Of a stretch of 64,000 bases of DNA, positions 24,321 to 33,186 are shown piece after piece. Source of the stretch: Ruminococcus sp. zg-924. Lineage in GTDB: Bacteria > Bacillota > Clostridia > Oscillospirales > Acutalibacteraceae. The translations under genes were made by a program, and so were the position numbers. Each line of letters begins with the position of its first letter. Within the stretch, counting starts at the first letter, position 1. The stretch lies in the NCBI RefSeq assembly GCF_024433635.1, contig NZ_WNJZ01000005.1:1-64000 (forward strand), in the 5' to 3' direction. The notes beneath the pieces are model-generated. The model had not been told where the DNA came from, ran no database searches, and saw nothing but the letters and a program-made list of their open reading frames with translations.

Positions 24321-25004
24321 TCATATTCCGTATTTAGTTTTAATTCGTTGAAGTTTCTTTCCGATAGGTTTCGTCATTAAAAGAAGAAAAACAACGTTTG
24401 ACACAGCATAAACAGCCATTATTGGCAGTGATGTTGCGAAAAATGCAAAATAACGCTCAACATTAAAGCCTCCGTCTGCCCACAGAGTTGTCCATATATC
24501 CATTACCATAGAATAGAAAACGCCTGAGAAGATACCCCACAGCGAAATAGTTAACTTATTCTTTATAATATATCTTGCAAGCACGCCTGAAAGTAAGCCG
24601 ACTAATCCCCACACCATCATCTGAAACGGGGTCCACGGACCTTGTCCAAAATAAAAATTAGACAGCAGTGCGGAAAATGCGCCGGTAATAAATCCACATT
24701 CACCACCGAAGTACAGTGCAGTAATAATGACAATTGATGTAACCGGTTTAAAAAACGGAATAGGTGAGAAAACAAATCTGCCTGCCACTGACAGTGCAAT
24801 CATTACAGCTATAACTGCAACAAGCTTTCCGTTAGCAGCATTTTTCTCGAAACTCAAAACAAACGCAAGTGTTGATAATACAGCTATAATTAATGATGCA
24901 ATATCATACCTGTTGTTACTGAAAAGTGTGTATGAAAGTATAACAGTTATCGGAACAGCTATTAAAAGCAGTATAGACGCAATTGTTTTTTTCAAAACGC
25001 TCAT
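24321..25004 (-). CDS. ECF transporter S component, predicted cobalamin/corrinoid-specific
   Basis: A 227-residue membrane protein with about six helices. The core matches ECF substrate-binding subunits: GRFVFSPIPFFKPVTSIVII, then GFITGAFSALLSNFYFGQG and PFQMMVWGLVGLLSG. S components bind the vitamin and topple in the membrane when driven by the T and A subunits. The specificity call rests on context: it is the last gene of an operon under a cobalamin riboswitch with three putative corrinoid-binding exported proteins. The start at 25004 has CGGAGGAG upstream and lies three bases from the stop of the ATPase gene. Confidence 0.8.
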   Translation of the reverse strand: MSVLKKTIASILLLIAVPITVILSYTLFSNNRYDIASLIIAVLSTLAFVLSFEKNAANGKLVAVIAVMIALSVAGRFVFSPIPFFKPVTSIVIITALYFGGECGFITGAFSALLSNFYFGQGPWTPFQMMVWGLVGLLSGVLARYIIKNKLTISLWGIFSGVFYSMVMDIWTTLWADGGFNVERYFAFFATSLPIMAVYAVSNVVFLLLMTKPIGKKLQRIKTKYGI

Positions 25005-25006
25005 AT

Positions 25007-26629
25007 TCACTCCTCCGAAGCTTTCCACATTTTCGCAACATCTTCACAGGTTACGGCATTATCAATTATACCCCTTGATATTCTGTTTGCGTCAGTTGTG
25101 TAGAAGCAATTACCGCAGAAAAAGCTTTGCGGTGCTGAACAAGAGATGATTTCACCGTTAAAGAGCAAAGCGCAACGGTCTGCCGTTTGTGCAGAAAATT
25201 CAATATCATGAGTAACAGTTATCACCGTTACTCCTTGTTTGCACATAGCCTTGATTAACCCCGTTAGCTCCTTCTTGCCATTGGGGTCTATACCCTTTGT
25301 GGGTTCATCAAGAAGCAGAACATCCGGATTTTTGAGCATAAGCTTTGTCAATGCGGCACGCTGAGTTTCTCCGCCGCTTAAATCGTAAGGATGACGGTCA
25401 AACAGATTTGAAATATTAAACACTTGAGAAAGCTGTGCTATTTTTTCTGCTCCGTCTTTATCAGAATATCCAATTTCTTTGCAACATTCAGTTAAATCTT
25501 CAAGCAGATTATCCTTTAAGAATACAAGCTCTGCTCTTTGTGGCAGCATGGAAATTCTATGCTTGTTATCAGATTTCATCTTTCCGATATACGGCTTAAT
25601 TCCTCCACTAAGCATACGCAAAAGTGTACTTTTACCAGCTCCATTTGCACCTAAGATGCATAGACTCTCTCCTTTGTATACGTCAAGGTCAAGCTGGCGA
25701 AGAACATCGGGTGTATTTTTCTGATAGCGAAAGTGAATATTATGAAGCTTTATTATTCGCTGTCTATTATTCATTTTTGCTTTTTCAATATTTTGTTTTA
25801 TATATTTCCCCTCAAAAGCCTTTCTAAGGTACGCTCTGCCCTGTCTGACATCTATCGGGCATTCTCCATCGCCGTTTGTCATTGCATATATTCTTGAAGA
25901 GGCAGGAAGTGAGTTGAACAATGGTGAAGCCTTGTCTTTGATAATTTGTTCGGCTATGCTTTTAGGTGTATCACAATATTTTATTCTGCCGTTTTCCATA
26001 ACAGCGACCCTGTCAGCAAGCACAAAAGCATCTTCAAGGCGGTGTTCAGTCATAATTACGGTTGTGCCTGTTTCCCTGTTTAACCTTGTAACAGCGTTTA
26101 AAAATTCTCGTGCCGCTATTGGGTCAAGCTGTGATACAGGCTCGTCAAGGAGAAGCAACCGAGGCTGCATCGCCATGACAGACGCTAAGTTTAAAATTTG
26201 GGTCTGACCGCCGGAAAGCTCACTTGTGTTTTTGTCAAACCAAGATGAAATGCCGAGAAAGCTTGCCATCTCACCTGTTCTGAGTCTTATTGTGTTTTTA
26301 TCAATTCCTAAGTTCTCAAGACCAAACGCTAATTCGTGCCATACCTTGTCAGTAACAATTTGATTATGAGGATTCTGCATTACTAATCCAACGTCACAGG
26401 AATTTTCATTATCACGAGGATTGCCGAACAGAGTTATTTTACCGTTAAGCTCACCAACAGGTGAAAGCTCTTTTTTTATTAACTTTAAAAGTGTTGTTTT
26501 GCCGCTGCCACTGCTGCCGCACAGCAGAAGGATCTCACCTTCTTCAACTGTCAGGTTTATATTATTAATGGCATAATCCTGCCCTGTGGAGTATTTAAAG
26601 CTTAAATTTTCGAGATTGAGTATTTCCAT
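25007..26629 (-). CDS. ECF transporter fused ATPase (A and A' in one chain)
   Basis: A 540-residue protein with two ABC ATPase domains. Domain 1 has Walker A CGSSGSGKTT near residue 36, signature LSGGQTQ near 139 and Walker B LLLLDEP. Domain 2 has GANGAGKST near 332, LSGGETQ near 430 and LLLDEPTKG. ECF modules normally use two separate ATPases; single-chain fusions occur in Firmicutes with dedicated modules. It energises vitamin uptake with the T and S proteins encoded on either side. It overlaps the T-component gene by 28 bases and is preceded by GGGGTGAG. Confidence 0.9.
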   Translation of the reverse strand: MEILNLENLSFKYSTGQDYAINNINLTVEEGEILLLCGSSGSGKTTLLKLIKKELSPVGELNGKITLFGNPRDNENSCDVGLVMQNPHNQIVTDKVWHELAFGLENLGIDKNTIRLRTGEMASFLGISSWFDKNTSELSGGQTQILNLASVMAMQPRLLLLDEPVSQLDPIAAREFLNAVTRLNRETGTTVIMTEHRLEDAFVLADRVAVMENGRIKYCDTPKSIAEQIIKDKASPLFNSLPASSRIYAMTNGDGECPIDVRQGRAYLRKAFEGKYIKQNIEKAKMNNRQRIIKLHNIHFRYQKNTPDVLRQLDLDVYKGESLCILGANGAGKSTLLRMLSGGIKPYIGKMKSDNKHRISMLPQRAELVFLKDNLLEDLTECCKEIGYSDKDGAEKIAQLSQVFNISNLFDRHPYDLSGGETQRAALTKLMLKNPDVLLLDEPTKGIDPNGKKELTGLIKAMCKQGVTVITVTHDIEFSAQTADRCALLFNGEIISCSAPQSFFCGNCFYTTDANRISRGIIDNAVTCEDVAKMWKASEE

Positions 26630-27450
26630 TTAATCTCACCCCACAGATTTATTGCAGTCGGCATTAGGAGAAAAACCGCACATAGGATGTACGATACATC
26701 AAAATTAATTTTATCCATCTCCGGATAATAGTTATAGTTTAGTAAGCCGCTGAAAAAGACAATATACACAAAGCCTGTTATAGTATAAATCAGCAGCAGA
26801 AAATCAGCAAATGTAAATCGAAAGCGAGAGTAGCTTACCCTTTTATGTAAGCCATAGCCTCTTGCTTTCATTGAGCTTAATTGTTCAACAGCACCCTCAA
26901 GACTGCGAGTAATAAGGCAGGAGAAAATGGCGATATGTTTTTTTACCCTTTTTATTATTCCGCATCTAATAGGAATGATAGAATTCTGTATTTCAAGCAT
27001 TTCTCGACCACCACTGATAAATTGTGGTACGAGCCTTAAAGCCATAGATATTGTTAGAGCTGCTTTTGGCATAACAGCGCCAAACAGGCACAGAAACTTG
27101 TCCGATGTAATTACGGTGTTATAGCAGGAAAACCACAGCAAAACTGCAATTATAACTGCTCCGAGGTATACACCGTACACAAATGCCTCCAGCGTTATAG
27201 GGTTTCCGTTTAAGAAAAAAAGCACTGTGACACCGTTATGACTAAATATTGGGTTTGTTATGGCTGTAAGCAAAAAGATAAGTGGATATATCCACACGCT
27301 TTGTGTTGCTTTTAGCGACAGATAGAAAACAAACGCCGCTACAATTGAAATTGCCGCAATTACGATATTGCGGCTGAACATAGTTATGCACACAGCTGAA
27401 ATCAGATATAAAAATGATGAAATAGGGTGAAAAGCCGAAAACCTCTGCAT
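26602..27450 (-). CDS. ECF transporter T component
   Basis: A 282-residue membrane protein of the EcfT/CbiQ family with five or so helices. The coupling region is SLEGAVEQLSSMKARGYG near residue 190, which holds the conserved A-R-G motif that contacts the ATPases. It joins the S subunit to the ATPases. The ATG at 27450 follows AAGGAGTGG; a GTG three codons earlier is possible. It sits in the riboswitch-controlled operon between the DUF4430 lipoprotein and the ATPase. Confidence 0.87.
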   Translation of the reverse strand: MQRFSAFHPISSFLYLISAVCITMFSRNIVIAAISIVAAFVFYLSLKATQSVWIYPLIFLLTAITNPIFSHNGVTVLFFLNGNPITLEAFVYGVYLGAVIIAVLLWFSCYNTVITSDKFLCLFGAVMPKAALTISMALRLVPQFISGGREMLEIQNSIIPIRCGIIKRVKKHIAIFSCLITRSLEGAVEQLSSMKARGYGLHKRVSYSRFRFTFADFLLLIYTITGFVYIVFFSGLLNYNYYPEMDKINFDVSYILCAVFLLMPTAINLWGEIKWKYSISKI

Positions 27451-27462
27451 TATTTCCACTCC

Positions 27463-28002
27463 TTAGTTTTCGCTAAAATTTGGTGCTCCAAGGTCAGCAC
27501 CCAAATTGCAAGTGTACTGCCACCGTACAACATCACCATCACTCAGCTTATAATTTGCAGACGAGGTATTCCCAAACTCTCCGTTTACGCTGTAATACCA
27601 TCCGCTCAGCTCCCCGCAGGAAAATTCGTATATATGATTTATTCCCTTAACATAAACCGAACCAAGGGCGTTCTGCTCTGCTCCCTGAAACTCCAGATGA
27701 ATACGCTTATCTTTTGTTGCTTTTTGCAGAATTGAAAAGGCTGTGTCATTTTCATCAATAGGATATTTCGTTTCTTCAAGGATAACTCCGTCATTCGGAA
27801 CATACTTTTCATTTTTAATGCTTTCATCAAGCATATCATAGTTATCAAGTATGGTTTTGCAATCTATGGAAACAGTTGCATAACTGCCGTTGCCACTTGA
27901 GCCGGAAGAGGAATAGTAATCGTCAACACTTTGAATTGAGCAAGAGGTGAATGTCAAGGCAATGCAAAGCAATGATACGAGAAATGTCAGATGCTTTTTC
28001 AT
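27463..28002 (-). CDS. DUF4430 lipoprotein, transcobalamin beta-domain-like
   Basis: A 179-residue exported lipoprotein. A signal peptide ends in a lipobox (TFTSC) with the lipid-modified cysteine at residue 21, followed by a Ser/Gly-rich stretch. Residues about 85-178 are a DUF4430 domain, recognised by GWYYSVNG, then DGDVVRWQYTCNLGADLG. This is the domain that forms the C-terminal beta half of animal intrinsic factor and transcobalamin, where it covers the corrin ring. A position on the outer face of the membrane beside the ECF transporter would let it hand over a corrinoid. The start follows CGGAGGAG and lies three bases from the upstream stop. Ligand binding is inferred. Confidence 0.8.
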   Translation of the reverse strand: MKKHLTFLVSLLCIALTFTSCSIQSVDDYYSSSGSSGNGSYATVSIDCKTILDNYDMLDESIKNEKYVPNDGVILEETKYPIDENDTAFSILQKATKDKRIHLEFQGAEQNALGSVYVKGINHIYEFSCGELSGWYYSVNGEFGNTSSANYKLSDGDVVRWQYTCNLGADLGAPNFSEN

Positions 28003-28004
28003 AT

Positions 28005-29714
28005 TCACTCCTCCGTTGTAAGTCCGTTATCATCATTTGCAGAGCTGTCGAGCATTTCATTTCCGGAAGCGTTTTCATTTTCTGAATCTTCGCTATCCGA
28101 ATTTAATTCTTCGTCGCTTTGCTTTTCAAACTCTTCCCTATCCTTTTTGAGCATATTAAAAAAATCGTCCTCAGGTTTTTGCTTTATAAGTCCTTTTTTC
28201 TTTCTGTATAAATAATACCCAACGAAAGCAGCAATCAAAATTATGCCAAGCAAAACGAATGCAGTTGAATTTATTGCAGGGCCGTCGTTATCACTGCTTT
28301 GAGTTATCATCTCTTGTGAGCTTGTACTTTCGGAGCTGTTTTTCTGTTCTAAAATGCTGTTTGAACTACTGTTGCCTGACGCATCATTGCTCTTTGTCGC
28401 CTTTGCACTTTCCTTTTCATTAGCTTTCACACTTCCGCCCGTAGTACCACCGATAGATGAAGCTGATTGAGAAGAATTTGCAGAATTTGAGCTTGACGAT
28501 AAAGCGGCAGTTGTACTTCCGCCATGATTTTGAGCAGAATTCACACTTGAAGAGCTTGAACTATTGCTGCTTGATGTTTTGTGTGGATTTGACGGTACGG
28601 GTATGGTTGGCTGCTCGTTGTCTGTCTTTGGAACAAATGTTGTCATCCTAATGCCGTCGGTAAAGTCAAATAATCGTGCACCGCCGCCGTAAAAACGTTC
28701 AAGAGCCGCAACTGCACCCAAAGCCTGCTCACTTGCCATAGCGTCAGAGCCACCGCCCGGCTTATGTGCAAAACCGCCGTCGCTTTGTTTATAGCTCATT
28801 AATGAATCAAGCAAGCTACGATTTTTTACAAATCGCTTATCTGACTGAGGGTCAATTCCAAGCGAGCATAGAGTGATTATAACCTGGCTTACACTTTCAC
28901 TGTTTACAGTTCCGAAAGACTCATATCCACCGTCCTGCTGTTGTGCATCAGAAAGAAATGCGAGCGATTCGTCAATGATTTGACCGACAGTCTTAGTTAC
29001 GGTTCTGTTTTTTCTGCCATACTTCGGAACATATGTGTAGCTTTTATTGTCATACTGATAAGGCGCAAGTGCGCAAAGAGTCATCGCTGTTATGTCAATG
29101 TCTGATTTGGTAGCCATAGGAACAACAGAGAAACCGCCGTCTTTAATTTGATATTTAAGTATTTCAATGATAATTTCTTCTCTGTTATAGCTGCTGCCAT
29201 CAGGAATTTTTGTATTAAGGCTATCGAGAGTAATAAGCCCCCATGTCCAGCCGTTGATTCCCTGTTTACCTAATGAGGCTGTTCTTTTTCTGTTGTACAC
29301 TCCGTCTGCGATAAGGTTTACACCGCCGACATTATAAGGGTTTCCGCCCGCTGATATTACAGCTAAAGCGATTTTATGATAGTCGGTGGCGTAGGTATCG
29401 GAAAGCGTACCGCTTTCATTATATTTTTTGACTACATAAGTTGTAATTGAATCAAGAAAGCCTTGTGGATTATCCTCAAAGCCGAGCCTGCCCATATAGC
29501 AGGCATACCACTCACCACCTGAAGAATTTGCAATATTCTGCGTGAATTTATCGGTAAAAAGGCAATTTCCTGTTCCCTCAGCATTTTTCTTCCATTTTAC
29601 TATACCGTTGGCAGTTGTTCTGAAATCGTATGAGGAATAATCCGCAGCTCCTGCAACAGTAACAGAAGACATAAGAATAAGTACAAATAAAAATATTGCA
29701 GCTGCTCTTTTCAT
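28005..29714 (-). CDS. Membrane-anchored alpha/alpha-barrel protein, intrinsic factor alpha-domain-like
   Basis: A 569-residue exported protein. Residues 1-23 are a signal peptide. Residues about 25-355 hold prenyltransferase/squalene-cyclase-type repeats, each with a DGGF-like turn (KDGGF 191-195, QDGGY 260-264, SDGGF 311-315), and the segment SDIDITAMTLCAL at 204-216 resembles the DTAAM region of intrinsic factor and transcobalamin. Residues 365-475 are a Ser/Asn/Gly-rich spacer. A transmembrane helix at about 484-503 is followed by a basic stop-transfer and an acidic cytoplasmic tail of about 60 residues. It lacks a DUF4430 domain; two neighbours carry it. Predicted role is corrinoid capture at the surface. 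It has an AGGAGG site. Confidence 0.75.
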   Translation of the reverse strand: MKRAAAIFLFVLILMSSVTVAGAADYSSYDFRTTANGIVKWKKNAEGTGNCLFTDKFTQNIANSSGGEWYACYMGRLGFEDNPQGFLDSITTYVVKKYNESGTLSDTYATDYHKIALAVISAGGNPYNVGGVNLIADGVYNRKRTASLGKQGINGWTWGLITLDSLNTKIPDGSSYNREEIIIEILKYQIKDGGFSVVPMATKSDIDITAMTLCALAPYQYDNKSYTYVPKYGRKNRTVTKTVGQIIDESLAFLSDAQQQDGGYESFGTVNSESVSQVIITLCSLGIDPQSDKRFVKNRSLLDSLMSYKQSDGGFAHKPGGGSDAMASEQALGAVAALERFYGGGARLFDFTDGIRMTTFVPKTDNEQPTIPVPSNPHKTSSSNSSSSSSVNSAQNHGGSTTAALSSSSNSANSSQSASSIGGTTGGSVKANEKESAKATKSNDASGNSSSNSILEQKNSSESTSSQEMITQSSDNDGPAINSTAFVLLGIILIAAFVGYYLYRKKKGLIKQKPEDDFFNMLKKDREEFEKQSDEELNSDSEDSENENASGNEMLDSSANDDNGLTTEE

Positions 29715-29746
29715 TTTAATTCCTCCAAAACAGATATTTATTCAGT

Positions 29747-29774
29747 ACGGGCGCAGCTATAATGCTACGCCCGT
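29747..29774 (-). other. Intergenic stem-loop within the B12-uptake operon
   Basis: ACGGGCG and CGCCCGT pair with an inner GCAGC/GCT region. There is no T-run, so it is more likely to set RNA stability or relative expression of the first gene than to end transcription. Confidence 0.5.
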
Positions 29775-29782
29775 AAAATGTC

Positions 29783-30748
29783 TTATACTATACCAATTCC
29801 GATTTTTTGCACAGTAATTGCGTCTGAAAGATTTACTGAACCGTCGCTGTTACAATCAGCGATAAGAGCTTGTACGCTGTCAAGGCTTGTAATTTCAAGT
29901 GAAGATTTCTGAATAAGTATTGCATCCTTTACAGATACGGAGCCGCTCAGGTCAACATCACCTGTAATCGGATTGAGTCTTGCTATGGTGTTATAGTCAC
30001 TAAGGACTGAATCAACCTCTTGTTTCGTTGCCGGAAGATTGGCGGCGGTGTTTTTTAATATTTCAACAGAGTTGTAAAGCGGTGAGGGTTTAGTTGCACT
30101 CGACTGCCCAATTACCCTTGTAAGCTCAGTTTTGTCTGTTGTTTCGTAGAAATCCGAGTGATATCCCCACTGCGGCATACCTGAGAGATTTGCAAGACCT
30201 ATATCTGCACCACAGTCGAGTGAAAATTGAACCCTGATAACATCGCCGTTGTTAAGCTTAGTTTGCGATAAACCCAATGACAATGATTCAGCTGTTGGCT
30301 GATTAACGCTGAACATCCAGCCGGAAAGCGGATAATAGTCGCCGGCAATTAAATCATTAGGAGTATAGTCCTCGTCAAGATAATCTCCAAAAAGAATATC
30401 CTCATCATATTCATCGTCGTGTGCAATGATAGTATTTAATATATATGACGGAATTTTGTCAGTATGAGCGAAGGTTATGCCTTTTAGGTAAAATCCGTAC
30501 TCGTTCGTTGAGCTAAATGCTATTTGTTTTTGTTCAAGAGCTTTTTGCACGGCTGTTGCTGCCGTATCGCCCTCGTTAAAGCTTATCAGTGTCGGCTCTA
30601 CAACATATCCGCAGCCGATTGAGAATGCTTCAATTGAAACAGTAACAGTTTTTTCTTCGTTTGGTGCTGCAGCGGCACTTGTTGCAAATATGCCAAGTAC
30701 AAGAATAAGCGACATTGCAGCTGTTGTGATTTTTTTGATTGCTTTCAT
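29783..30748 (-). CDS. Secreted DUF4430 protein with a type I dockerin
   Basis: This 321-residue exported protein is the first gene after the cobalamin riboswitch. Residues 1-28 are a signal peptide without a lipobox. Residues about 45-195 form a DUF4430 (transcobalamin beta-like) domain ending in SGWMFSVN, NNGDVIRVQFSLDCGADIG. Residues about 263-321 are a type I dockerin with two calcium-binding repeats (GDVDLSGSVSVKDAI and ADCNSDGSVNLSDAI). Dockerins lock onto cohesins on scaffoldins, so this protein may be placed on a cellulosome or similar surface complex. An AGGAGG site precedes the ATG. Corrinoid binding is an inference from domain and operon. Confidence 0.82.
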   Translation of the reverse strand: MKAIKKITTAAMSLILVLGIFATSAAAAPNEEKTVTVSIEAFSIGCGYVVEPTLISFNEGDTAATAVQKALEQKQIAFSSTNEYGFYLKGITFAHTDKIPSYILNTIIAHDDEYDEDILFGDYLDEDYTPNDLIAGDYYPLSGWMFSVNQPTAESLSLGLSQTKLNNGDVIRVQFSLDCGADIGLANLSGMPQWGYHSDFYETTDKTELTRVIGQSSATKPSPLYNSVEILKNTAANLPATKQEVDSVLSDYNTIARLNPITGDVDLSGSVSVKDAILIQKSSLEITSLDSVQALIADCNSDGSVNLSDAITVQKIGIGIV

Positions 30749-30785
30749 TTTTAATTCCTCCGATTAAAATTTTTATTTCGGAAAA

Positions 30786-30807
30786 CAAAAAAGCGCCATA
30801 ACGGCGC
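30786..30807 (-). terminator. Terminator of the cobalamin riboswitch
   Basis: On the minus strand GCGCC-GTTAT-GGCGC is followed by six T residues. It lies between the aptamer and the first gene, so it is the expression platform: bound cobalamin would favour this hairpin and stop transcription. Confidence 0.88.
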
Positions 30808-30859
30808 AGCAATACTTATATAAAGTACAGCCATTCTCCTCCGAAATGTCAGTTTACTG

Positions 30860-31015
30860 TAAGTGCGGCAGGTCTCCTGGCTCAAATTCAACCTAATTGC
30901 TCGCCTTCCCGACCGAAGTCAGTGACTTTTATAGAGCTTTCGTCATTTTTACAGTAGCGGGGACTGCTGCGGATTCTAACCGCATTCCCTTTTAATTCTC
31001 TGTAAAGAGAAACCG
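30860..31015 (-). promoter_or_regulatory. Cobalamin riboswitch aptamer
   Basis: The conserved B12 box, AGCCAGGAGACCTGCC, is at 30882-30867 on the minus strand. Upstream of it are the other class signatures: GGGAATGCGGTTAGAATCCG and CAGTCCCCGCTACTG, then TCGGGAAGGCGAGCAA. The element senses adenosylcobalamin or another cobalamin and lies about 110 bases before the six-gene operon. This gives direct sequence evidence that the operon responds to B12. Edges are approximate. Confidence 0.95.
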
Positions 31016-31049
31016 CAAATACAATGTTAAGTTTATACGATATCGCACT

Positions 31050-31670
31050 CTATGTCAAGGAAATATTTATTAGCGAATATTCACAGCAAGTTTCACAGCA
31101 CAGTGCAGCAGTAAGCTCACCGATATTAAAGCAGGCAAAACTCCACTGCTTTTCGTCATTAGAATTCAGAATAATATCTTTACCAGAAATACCAAAGCTG
31201 AAGCTTTTAGGCGAGAGTTCAAAGCCAAGTCCCTTAGCCTTCATATAGCTTTCCTTTAAGCACCAAAGCTTATAGAAATCGTTTTCCAAGTCGAAGGTCT
31301 GTGAAAGATAAGAAAGCTCGTTTTCACAAAATACAATCCGTCCTATCGACATATAATTTCTCTCACTGTGCTCTTGAATATCAAGCCCAACCGAAGAATC
31401 TGATACCGCAACAGCGCAAACTCCTCCGCTGTGTGATATTGAAATGTAACCGCCGTGTTTTAAACACGGACAACCGTTTTTATCTTTATAGAGAACAGAG
31501 TTATCGCCAAACACTTTATTTATAATCAAGCCGATTGCAAGACAATCAAGCTTATCATCCTTTTTTTTGAGCCTTTTAAACCGCTCAAACCGTTCGGCTG
31601 ACAAAAGGCTTTCTGCTTTGTAAACAAAAGGCTTTGCCAGTGCGCTTTCCATATAGTATATTTTAGTCAT
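31050..31670 (-). CDS. 4'-phosphopantetheinyl transferase, Sfp type
   Basis: A 206-residue protein with the Sfp-family motifs: SISHSGGVCAVAVSDSSVGLD near residue 77, where the D and E of the magnesium site follow, and FYKLWCLKESYMKAKGLG near 133. It transfers phosphopantetheine from CoA to carrier proteins. No polyketide or non-ribosomal peptide genes are nearby, so the target could be the fatty acid acyl carrier protein or a distant cluster. AAAGGAG precedes the ATG. It lies directly upstream of the riboswitch on the same strand. Confidence 0.87.
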   Translation of the reverse strand: MTKIYYMESALAKPFVYKAESLLSAERFERFKRLKKKDDKLDCLAIGLIINKVFGDNSVLYKDKNGCPCLKHGGYISISHSGGVCAVAVSDSSVGLDIQEHSERNYMSIGRIVFCENELSYLSQTFDLENDFYKLWCLKESYMKAKGLGFELSPKSFSFGISGKDIILNSNDEKQWSFACFNIGELTAALCCETCCEYSLINISLT

Positions 31671-31694: not shown

Positions 31695-33065
31695 TCAGCT
31701 GTCGGTCAAGTGTCTGAGCTTTAAATTACGTGCGTACTTCGGTCGCCAATTTCCTCTTAGGTAGAACACAATTGAAATTGTCGCTGAAATTATCCAGCCA
31801 ACAGGCCAGCTCCACCAAATTCCGTATATACCGAAAAAGGGCGAGAGTATAAACGCCATAATGACCCTGATAATAAGGTCAGAAAATGTTGTTGTCATAA
31901 AGCTTGCCATTGCGCCGCCACCTTTAAGCACAGCATCAGTGGTGAGCTTAGCGGCTACTGAGAAGTAGAACGGTGAAGTAATAATTATAAAACTTGAGCC
32001 GGTTTGAATAGCAACGTCACTTGGCGAATTCATAAACAAGCCAACAAGAGAATCTCTGAATGTAAGAGAAACAACGGTTACTACTGCGCAAAAGCTCAGC
32101 GCCATAACAAGCGCACTTTTATACCCTAAGATTACCCTTTTAAGCTTCTTTCCGCCTATATTCTGAGACGTATAGCTTGACAATCCGTTTGACATTGAGG
32201 TAAAGCATGTTATACAGAATGTGTTGATTTTTACAGCCGCAGAGTAACCTGCTACTGTTGCGGAACCAAAGCCGTTTATCAAGCTCTGAATAAATATGTT
32301 TCCAACTGACACAAAGCTTTGCTGAATAATACTGGGGATTGCAATGCGGCTAATATGCGAGAGCATTGAAAAAGAGAAAATGGGTGCTTTTTCTTTATTA
32401 TCAGCTTTAAGTTTTGAAAGGCGCCTTAGCAGAACAAAAAAAGCTAAGACAGAAGCAACGCCTTGAGCCACAAATGTTGCCCATGCAACACCCAAAACTC
32501 CAAGGCCAAAGGAAGCGACAAACAGCACGTCAAGAGCAATGTTGCCAAGTGATGACGCAATAAGAAAATACAGCGGCGTTTTGGAGTCACCAAGTGCGGT
32601 AAAAATTGCGTTGCAGATATTATATACAAAAAGAAATATAAGCCCGGTTATGTATACTTTAAGATATACGCTGCTGTCGGCAAAAATATTTTCAGGAGTG
32701 TTAAGCAAGGCAATAACAGAGTCGCAAAAGATGAGCCCAAAAACGGTCAGTATAAGACTTAAGACTACAAAAGAAATAAATGACGTGTTTATTGCAAGGC
32801 GCATATTGCGATAATCCTTACCGCCAAAGTACCGTGAAATTACTACATTACAGCCAACAGAGCCGCCCATAGCAATAGCCACAAATATCATAGTAACAGG
32901 AAAAGAAGCTCCTACTGCCGCCAAAGCATTTTCACCGGCAAAATTACCTGCAACAATACTGTCCGCCATATTATAAAGCTGTTGAAAAACACTGCTTAAA
33001 AGCATTGGCATTGAAAAGCTCCATAATATTTTTGCAGGACTCCCCTTTGTTAAGTCCGTAATCAC
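31695..33065 (-). CDS. MATE-family multidrug/sodium antiporter
   Basis: A protein of about 456 residues with twelve hydrophobic segments in two related halves and the MATE patterns PMLLSSVFQQLYNMADSIV near the start and SIIQQSFVSVGNIFIQSL in the second half. Such proteins export drugs or metabolites in exchange for sodium or protons. I chose the GTG at 33065 because GAGGGG lies just upstream; a TTG six codons earlier overlaps that site. The substrate is unknown. Confidence 0.88.
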   Translation of the reverse strand: MITDLTKGSPAKILWSFSMPMLLSSVFQQLYNMADSIVAGNFAGENALAAVGASFPVTMIFVAIAMGGSVGCNVVISRYFGGKDYRNMRLAINTSFISFVVLSLILTVFGLIFCDSVIALLNTPENIFADSSVYLKVYITGLIFLFVYNICNAIFTALGDSKTPLYFLIASSLGNIALDVLFVASFGLGVLGVAWATFVAQGVASVLAFFVLLRRLSKLKADNKEKAPIFSFSMLSHISRIAIPSIIQQSFVSVGNIFIQSLINGFGSATVAGYSAAVKINTFCITCFTSMSNGLSSYTSQNIGGKKLKRVILGYKSALVMALSFCAVVTVVSLTFRDSLVGLFMNSPSDVAIQTGSSFIIITSPFYFSVAAKLTTDAVLKGGGAMASFMTTTFSDLIIRVIMAFILSPFFGIYGIWWSWPVGWIISATISIVFYLRGNWRPKYARNLKLRHLTDS

Positions 33066-33186
33066 TTTTAACCCCTCTTCCAAACAAATCTATGCTGAAT
33101 TTAGTATAATTCCGCAGTTATAATTTGTCAAATAAGTGTCAGGATTAATTTGCTGTATTATGAAGATTTATGAGTTATATATGATT

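Follow-up and report, generated by a model that had tools for sequence, protein, structure and literature searches.

Described systems for corrinoid capture and import

Described systems for the capture and import of vitamin B12 (cobalamin) and other corrinoids form the background for a six-gene operon of the gut-type bacterium Ruminococcus sp. zg-924 (Acutalibacteraceae, Clostridia) that is examined here. The operon is located within a stretch of 64,000 nucleotides (contig NZ_WNJZ01000005.1, positions 1 to 64,000), which is termed the window in the following, and it encodes three exported proteins, among them an alpha/alpha-barrel protein and a DUF4430 lipoprotein, together with a transporter of the energy-coupling factor (ECF) type. 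BtuCDF combines a corrinoid-binding protein and an ATP-driven importer, a pairing that the operon would share if its exported proteins bind corrinoids as presumed. BtuCDF, however, employs a FecCD permease, whereas the system in the window consists of other folds and belongs to the ECF mechanism. Surface proteins that capture B12 and are encoded together with an uptake system are also known from Bacteroides, i.e., BtuG and BtuH (PMC6977713, PMC8941943). While BtuG is a beta-propeller on the Gram-negative outer membrane that works with BtuB, the window combines a barrel and DUF4430 domains in a Gram-positive-type cell.

The closest described importer is ECF-CbrT from Lactobacillus delbrueckii, for which binding (9 nM) and transport of cobalamin, and also of cobinamide, have been demonstrated by experiment (PMC5997447). 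The likeness consists in a homologous S component, an ECF module and a B12-auxotrophic host without a BtuCD-type permease. On the other hand, the module of ECF-CbrT is shared by many S units, while the operon in the window has its own EcfT and EcfAA', and the S components differ in length (182 amino acids in ECF-CbrT, 235 in the window). Moreover, the operon adds three exported candidate binders, none of which is described in the text of the CbrT paper (PMC5997447), the gene cbrS that is named there being left aside in this comparison. In animals, intrinsic factor, transcobalamin and haptocorrin consist of an alpha/alpha-barrel and a DUF4430-type beta domain, and DUF4430 is the C-terminal domain of the vertebrate Tcn proteins (PMC4350170). 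In contrast to these single chains, the domains in the window are separate, membrane-anchored or dockerin-bearing, and encoded beside a transporter. The bacterial proteins, whose binding of corrinoids is presumed, share about 12–15% identity with the animal proteins.

We consider it probable that the operon serves the cobalamin-repressed capture and import of corrinoids, with the exported proteins handing the corrinoid to a CbrT-like ECF importer. The protein families, the riboswitch and ECF-CbrT are already known, while their combination in one system is apparently undescribed: we found no paper on intrinsic-factor-like proteins associated with an ECF B12 importer in the open literature, subscription journals and preprints being outside the scope of the search. 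The sequence-only reading from which this work started had considered the system a rarely described one of Gram-positive bacteria. This holds for its description but not for its occurrence, as it is widespread (see below).

Organization of the operon

The list of open reading frames of the window contains six co-directional frames on the minus strand, in the positions and order proposed before, and the six-gene operon with riboswitch and terminator was recovered in all its parts. The domain families proposed for its products were likewise found by Pfam (DUF4430, Dockerin_1, alpha-alpha toroid, ABC_tran, ECF S), the assignment of EcfT to the CbiQ family being weak. The features, as read from the window, are:

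24321..25028, minus strand: EcfS, substrate-binding membrane subunit of the CbrT type, 235 amino acids (profile A6 vs. PDB)
25007..26629, minus strand: EcfA-A', fused double ATPase, 540 amino acids (two ABC_tran domains; NCBIfam ECF_ATPase_1, 2.7e-97, over cut-off)
26602..27459, minus strand: EcfT, transmembrane coupling subunit (CbiQ family, weak, E 0.0016; position conserved in relatives)
27463..28008, minus strand: DUF4430 lipoprotein, 181 amino acids (PF14478, 1.5e-15; lipobox-like FTSC near residue 23)
28005..29714, minus strand: exported alpha/alpha-barrel membrane protein, 569 amino acids (PF00432, Prenyltrans alpha-alpha toroid, 1.4e-9)
28194..28277, minus strand: predicted C-terminal transmembrane anchor of the barrel protein, residues 480–507 approximately (hydrophobic stretch in the translation; a Lys-rich stretch and an acidic tail come after it)
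29783..30748, minus strand: secreted DUF4430-dockerin protein, 321 amino acids, N-terminal signal peptide (PF14478 and PF00404)
29807..29962, minus strand: dockerin type I domain, residues 263–314 of the DUF4430-dockerin protein (PF00404, 4e-6)
30793..30807, minus strand: putative intrinsic terminator between aptamer and first gene (GCGCCGTTATGGCGC then TTTTTTGTTT)
30850..31032, minus strand: cobalamin riboswitch aptamer (RF00174, 131.7 bits)

Transcription proceeds from the gene for the DUF4430-dockerin protein via those for the barrel protein, the DUF4430 lipoprotein and EcfT to those for EcfAA' and EcfS. The riboswitch match extends over the full length of the model (1–189 of 189), with a score far above the gathering score of 31.5 bits (E 6.8e-33). 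As it ends at 31032, the aptamer reaches 17 bases beyond the right edge of the piece originally noted. The host genome contains no other cobalamin riboswitch. The hairpin between aptamer and first gene (GCGCC-GTTAT-GGCGC, followed by TTTTTTG) is terminator-like, and two such sites were seen in the stretch vs. 0.3 expected. From this arrangement, we infer a transcriptional OFF switch that acts via the terminator.

Signal peptides, the lipobox-like motif and the transmembrane anchor were read from the translations. The barrel protein consists of a signal peptide, the barrel itself (residues 21–353 approximately), a Ser-rich linker and the C-terminal anchor. By its match over cut-off to an NCBIfam model (residues 481–507), the C-terminus is LPXTG_anchor-like. 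In the DUF4430-dockerin protein, the match to PF14478 is just below cut-off (9.8e-5), and the protein is 27% identical to the DUF4430 part of the lipoprotein (E 2e-10). The host genome contains eight cohesin matches over cut-off. In InterPro, PF14478 carries the name "transcobalamin-like, C-terminal." DUF4430 proteins are far more common in a class-wide search than their literature would suggest, with matches over the Pfam cut-off in 131 of 291 sampled species and up to 10 matches per genome.

The ECF transporter and its probable substrate

The S component matches the Pfam ECF S family (7.4e-12). When a profile of 35 operon-linked S components (A6) was compared with the PDB, CbrT (6fnp_A) was found with E 2.3e-23, while the next solved S components were 4hzu (1.1e-5) and RibU (3p5n, 4e-5). 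By sequence profile and among solved chains, the S component is therefore nearest to CbrT, a proven B12 S component, which agrees with the vitamin-type ECF transporter that had been proposed. EcfT, weakly of the CbiQ family, and the two EcfA ATPase domains of EcfAA' make up the ECF module. A cobalt transporter of the CbiMNQO type was rejected on the basis of the homology of the S component to CbrT. No CbiM match was obtained for this S component in Pfam and PDB profile searches.

Relation of the exported proteins to animal B12 binders

Counterparts of the two halves of intrinsic factor had been proposed to occur as separate exported proteins. They are indeed separate in the window, but fused forms exist in relatives: barrel and DUF4430 are present in one chain in the loci L039, L047, L048, L050, L051, L058, L119 and L140 (L and G denote our loci and genomes). 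Either domain may come first in these fusions, multi-module chains occur as well, and some linkers are short, as in Paenibacillus (L119). For one short-linker natural fusion, that of Tissierella simiarum (L140), an AlphaFold2 model was obtained with a predicted local distance difference test score (pLDDT) of 91.7 and a predicted template modeling score (pTM) of 0.74. When this model was compared with the PDB using Foldseek, ranks 1–15 were exclusively occupied by transcobalamin, intrinsic factor and haptocorrin (2.7e-11 to 1.1e-8), and terpene cyclases followed from 1.3e-5. Its DUF4430 domain matched the isolated human transcobalamin beta domain (5np4/5no0) with a template modeling score of 0.73–0.74. 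The barrel and the lipoprotein DUF4430 domain of the window are 34 and 37% identical to the respective halves of the fusion, on the basis of which the transcobalamin/intrinsic factor assignment was carried over to the window. The modeling thus supports the notion that the barrel protein is the counterpart of the alpha domain of intrinsic factor/transcobalamin, and the DUF4430 lipoprotein that of the beta domain.

The proposed fold relationship to intrinsic factor consequently stands for the natural fusion, while the barrel alone is closer to terpene cyclases. The AlphaFold2 model of the window barrel (pLDDT 93.1, pTM 0.92) is an alpha/alpha toroid, and besides terpene cyclases, the best 50 rows of the fold search with it contain prenyltransferase beta subunits, epimerases and GH105/GH88 enzymes. 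The matches listed in these rows include no animal B12 binders, which does not exclude them. The proximity to terpene cyclases arises because alpha/alpha toroids form a large class. As the fold is common to many enzymes, it does not by itself place the protein in the intrinsic factor family. PF01122, the family of eukaryotic cobalamin-binding proteins, gave no match either to the window proteins (E up to 1) or to the fusions (E up to 0.01). Taken together with the separation of the domains, this means that the window proteins are not strict members of the animal intrinsic factor family, though they may work like intrinsic factor. The residues around a DxDxTAM motif of the barrel are invariant in 65 diverse sequences, suggesting a ligand site.

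Conservation and riboswitch control in relatives

The operon is widespread in the Bacillota, where hundreds of relatives of the host carry it. At least 527 stretches across GTDB genomes encode relatives of the barrel protein, among them stretches from Paenibacillus, Sporosarcina, Kurthia, Desulfosporosinus, Clostridium cadaveris, Ruminococcus albus and Lutispora. The majority of the 79 loci compared exhibit the order DUF4430-barrel-DUF4430-T-A-S or a near variant of it, and the order barrel-DUF4430-T-A-S is conserved over Clostridia and Bacilli. Within the genus, the S gene is kept in five of six genomes (68–76% identity of the S component). Three same-genus loci (L169, L171 and L172) retain the full gene order, including the dockerin-like end, and possess an exact B12 box that is located, as in the window, between the sfp and dockerin genes. 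Conservation both in the genus and across the Bacillota indicates that the arrangement is not due to chance.

Homologous operons are likewise under cobalamin riboswitches, an outcome that favors the sequence-only reading just as the fold comparison does. Among 41 named ECF-linked loci, which are related and do not represent 41 independent events, direct Rfam scans detected a cobalamin riboswitch upstream in 34, in each case on the operon strand. Not one of the 41 loci had a cobalamin riboswitch on the opposite strand, and other classes were absent from the operon strand. Placement of genome-wide riboswitch matches by coordinates alone proved partly false (e.g., L084, other contigs), and direct scans of the loci were used. 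The distance from the riboswitch to the first recognized gene amounts to 2–4 kb in some loci, part of which is taken up by a corrinoid adenosyltransferase gene in L095 and L096 and by genes for surface proteins elsewhere. In L059, L064 and L069, barrel/DUF4430 genes without ECF genes nearby directly follow an exact B12 box, which ties the barrel/DUF4430 genes themselves to B12. Among the six fusion loci of the window's family that contain ECF genes, one has a riboswitch match (L051, two matches). The fusion loci L039, L047, L048, L050 and L058 gave no cobalamin riboswitch match, L050 including little upstream sequence.

B12 requirement of the host and its family

The host genome (99.94% complete) encodes a MetH-type enzyme whose B12-binding domain matches over cut-off. 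Two further searches of this genome were negative, namely that for CbiC, the one corrin-ring synthesis gene searched for, and that for a FecCD permease (BtuC-type, PF01032), the one further importer type searched for. In combination, these results indicate that the cell probably requires corrinoids and manages without CbiC-route ring synthesis or a BtuCD-type importer. Judged by its gene content, the host thus looks like a B12 auxotroph with MetH.

A match to the barrel protein is present in 38 of 150 genomes of the family, two of which (G030 and G119) contain just the tail of the protein. All 36 remaining barrel-bearing genomes encode the MetH cap domain PF02607, vs. 122 of the 150 overall (hypergeometric 1.8e-4, ignoring kinship among the genomes).

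Proposed mechanism and alternative explanations

At low cellular cobalamin, the riboswitch would let transcription pass through the terminator. Upon export, the barrel protein would be anchored by its C-terminal transmembrane helix and the DUF4430 lipoprotein would reside in the membrane next to the transporter, while the DUF4430-dockerin protein could be mounted on cohesin-bearing surface proteins, thereby widening capture. Barrel and DUF4430 lipoprotein would most likely close around a corrinoid as the domains of intrinsic factor do in one chain. The corrinoid would then be released to the CbrT-like S component, and the dedicated EcfT-AA' would drive its import and supply MetH. The steps that we infer are the binding of corrinoids to the exported proteins, the sandwich in split form, the hand-over to S and the role of the dockerin.

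Several observations weigh against this mechanism. Superposition of the L140 model on transcobalamin over residues 13–465 gave a root mean square deviation of 10 Å (Z 18.6), and this value together with the pTM of 0.74 implies that the domains and their order agree while their relative orientation is not predicted. The barrel alone is closest to squalene-hopene and drimenyl cyclases (VIA Z of about 21–22), and profiles of the barrel (A1), DUF4430 (A5) and the fused form (A4) retrieved terpene cyclases or nothing, and no transcobalamin, from the PDB sequences. The riboswitch cut-off was reached in just 9 of 23 ECF-linked loci of the window's family, several of which are truncated upstream. The same-genus species G030 lacks the operon and still keeps the MetH cap domain PF02607. 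Finally, ECF transporters are generally considered to bind their substrate via the S component, without extracellular binding proteins.

The main rival explanation keeps the substrate and drops the sandwich. DUF4430 would bind the corrinoid alone, or barrel and DUF4430 would do so independently, with the barrel as scaffold or receptor for loaded proteins. The PDB contains the isolated human transcobalamin beta domain with cyanocobalamin (5np4), so a DUF4430-type domain can bind by itself. Furthermore, the single barrel of the window is accompanied by two DUF4430 proteins, additional DUF4430 modules occur in many relatives, and the interdomain geometry of the L140 model is unlike that of transcobalamin. 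We nevertheless regard independent binding as rather unlikely, given that almost all operons have barrel and DUF4430 side by side, that fusions of the two have arisen repeatedly, with one or the other coming first and some with short linkers, and given the invariant surroundings of the DxDxTAM motif with the ligand site that they suggest. Import of a related compound, i.e., of cobinamide, other incomplete corrinoids or cobalt rather than B12, appears improbable to us. Cobalamin riboswitches do control cobalt uptake as well, as in C. difficile (PMC11477304), CbrT binds and moves cobinamide (PMC5997447), and EcfT is weakly of the CbiQ family. However, the S component resembles CbrT and RibU and has no CbiM match, and without CbiC, which the genome lacks, the usual route for incorporating free cobalt into a corrin ring would be closed. 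Transcobalamin-like alpha and beta parts would, in addition, make no sense for cobalt. Least credible of all, in our view, is that the exported proteins are unrelated surface proteins, such as terpene-cyclase-like enzymes or adhesins, that merely came under riboswitch control. Such an explanation would fit the similarity of the barrel alone to the two cyclases in sequence and fold, as well as the dockerin, leucine-rich repeat and long repetitive proteins encoded in the same operons. It does not fit the barrel-DUF4430-ECF linkage over Clostridia and Bacilli, the animal B12 binders on the first fifteen ranks of the PDB matches of the L140 model, or the B12 boxes before barrel genes without ECF neighbors, and an extracellular role would be odd for a terpene cyclase.

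Going beyond capture and import as such, a split, membrane-bound counterpart of intrinsic factor may close on corrinoids at the surface of Bacillota and hand them to an ECF S component, and may possibly be the bacterial relative from or beside which the animal B12 binders arose, a proposal for and against which we see the chances as evenly balanced. If true, an ECF importer would possess a dedicated extracellular complex for substrate capture, an unexpected stage for ECF transporters, and the question of how the animal B12 binders originated would gain a bacterial point of comparison. Apart from BtuCDF and CbrT, little is known of the ways in which Gram-positive bacteria, among them many gut Clostridia, acquire B12. 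The operon would fill this gap, and its presence would predict which gut bacteria scavenge B12 at their surface.

Neighboring genes and variants of the operon

Directly upstream of the operon and on the same strand, the window contains a gene for an Sfp-type phosphopantetheinyl transferase (31050–31670), and a gene for a MATE exporter follows beyond it (31695–33083, same strand). An sfp gene also precedes the operon in L169, L171 and L172, with the MATE gene seen in L169 too. In the sister species G030 (L068, 8848–11845, same genus), the operon has been lost between the same neighbors, i.e., MATE and sfp genes on one side and a helix-turn-helix gene on the other. The locus still encodes a short protein that bears a signal peptide and the C-terminal anchor of the barrel protein, and next to it lies a pair of IS200/IS605-like transposase genes.

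An ATP:corrinoid adenosyltransferase (BtuR/CobO) is encoded inside or beside the operon in L095 (1069–1578), L096 (2286–2795) and L042 (3155–3652), as detected by Pfam scan in L095 and by homology in the other two. The ribonucleotide reductase class to which the rtpR product belongs requires B12. A DUF4430 protein encoded beside rtpR, the gene for this reductase, has been noted in L. rhamnosus in a proteomics paper (PMC9963975).

In Ruminococcus, Clostridium and similar relatives, the barrel gene is followed by three genes, whose products resemble a MoxR ATPase, a DUF58 protein and a large membrane protein that may be a transglutaminase (L091, 6706–11029; L092, 8778–13306; L102, 8763–13158; L111, 8083–11775; L126, 8082–11771). 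In most of these loci, the trio is located between the barrel gene and that for the DUF4430 lipoprotein. Very long chains of 1545–2179 amino acids with several barrel (B) and DUF4430 (D) modules, arranged for example as D-D-B-D-B or B-D-B-D-B, are encoded in L109, L124, L134, L136, L140 and L151, and their module composition suggests multivalent capture.

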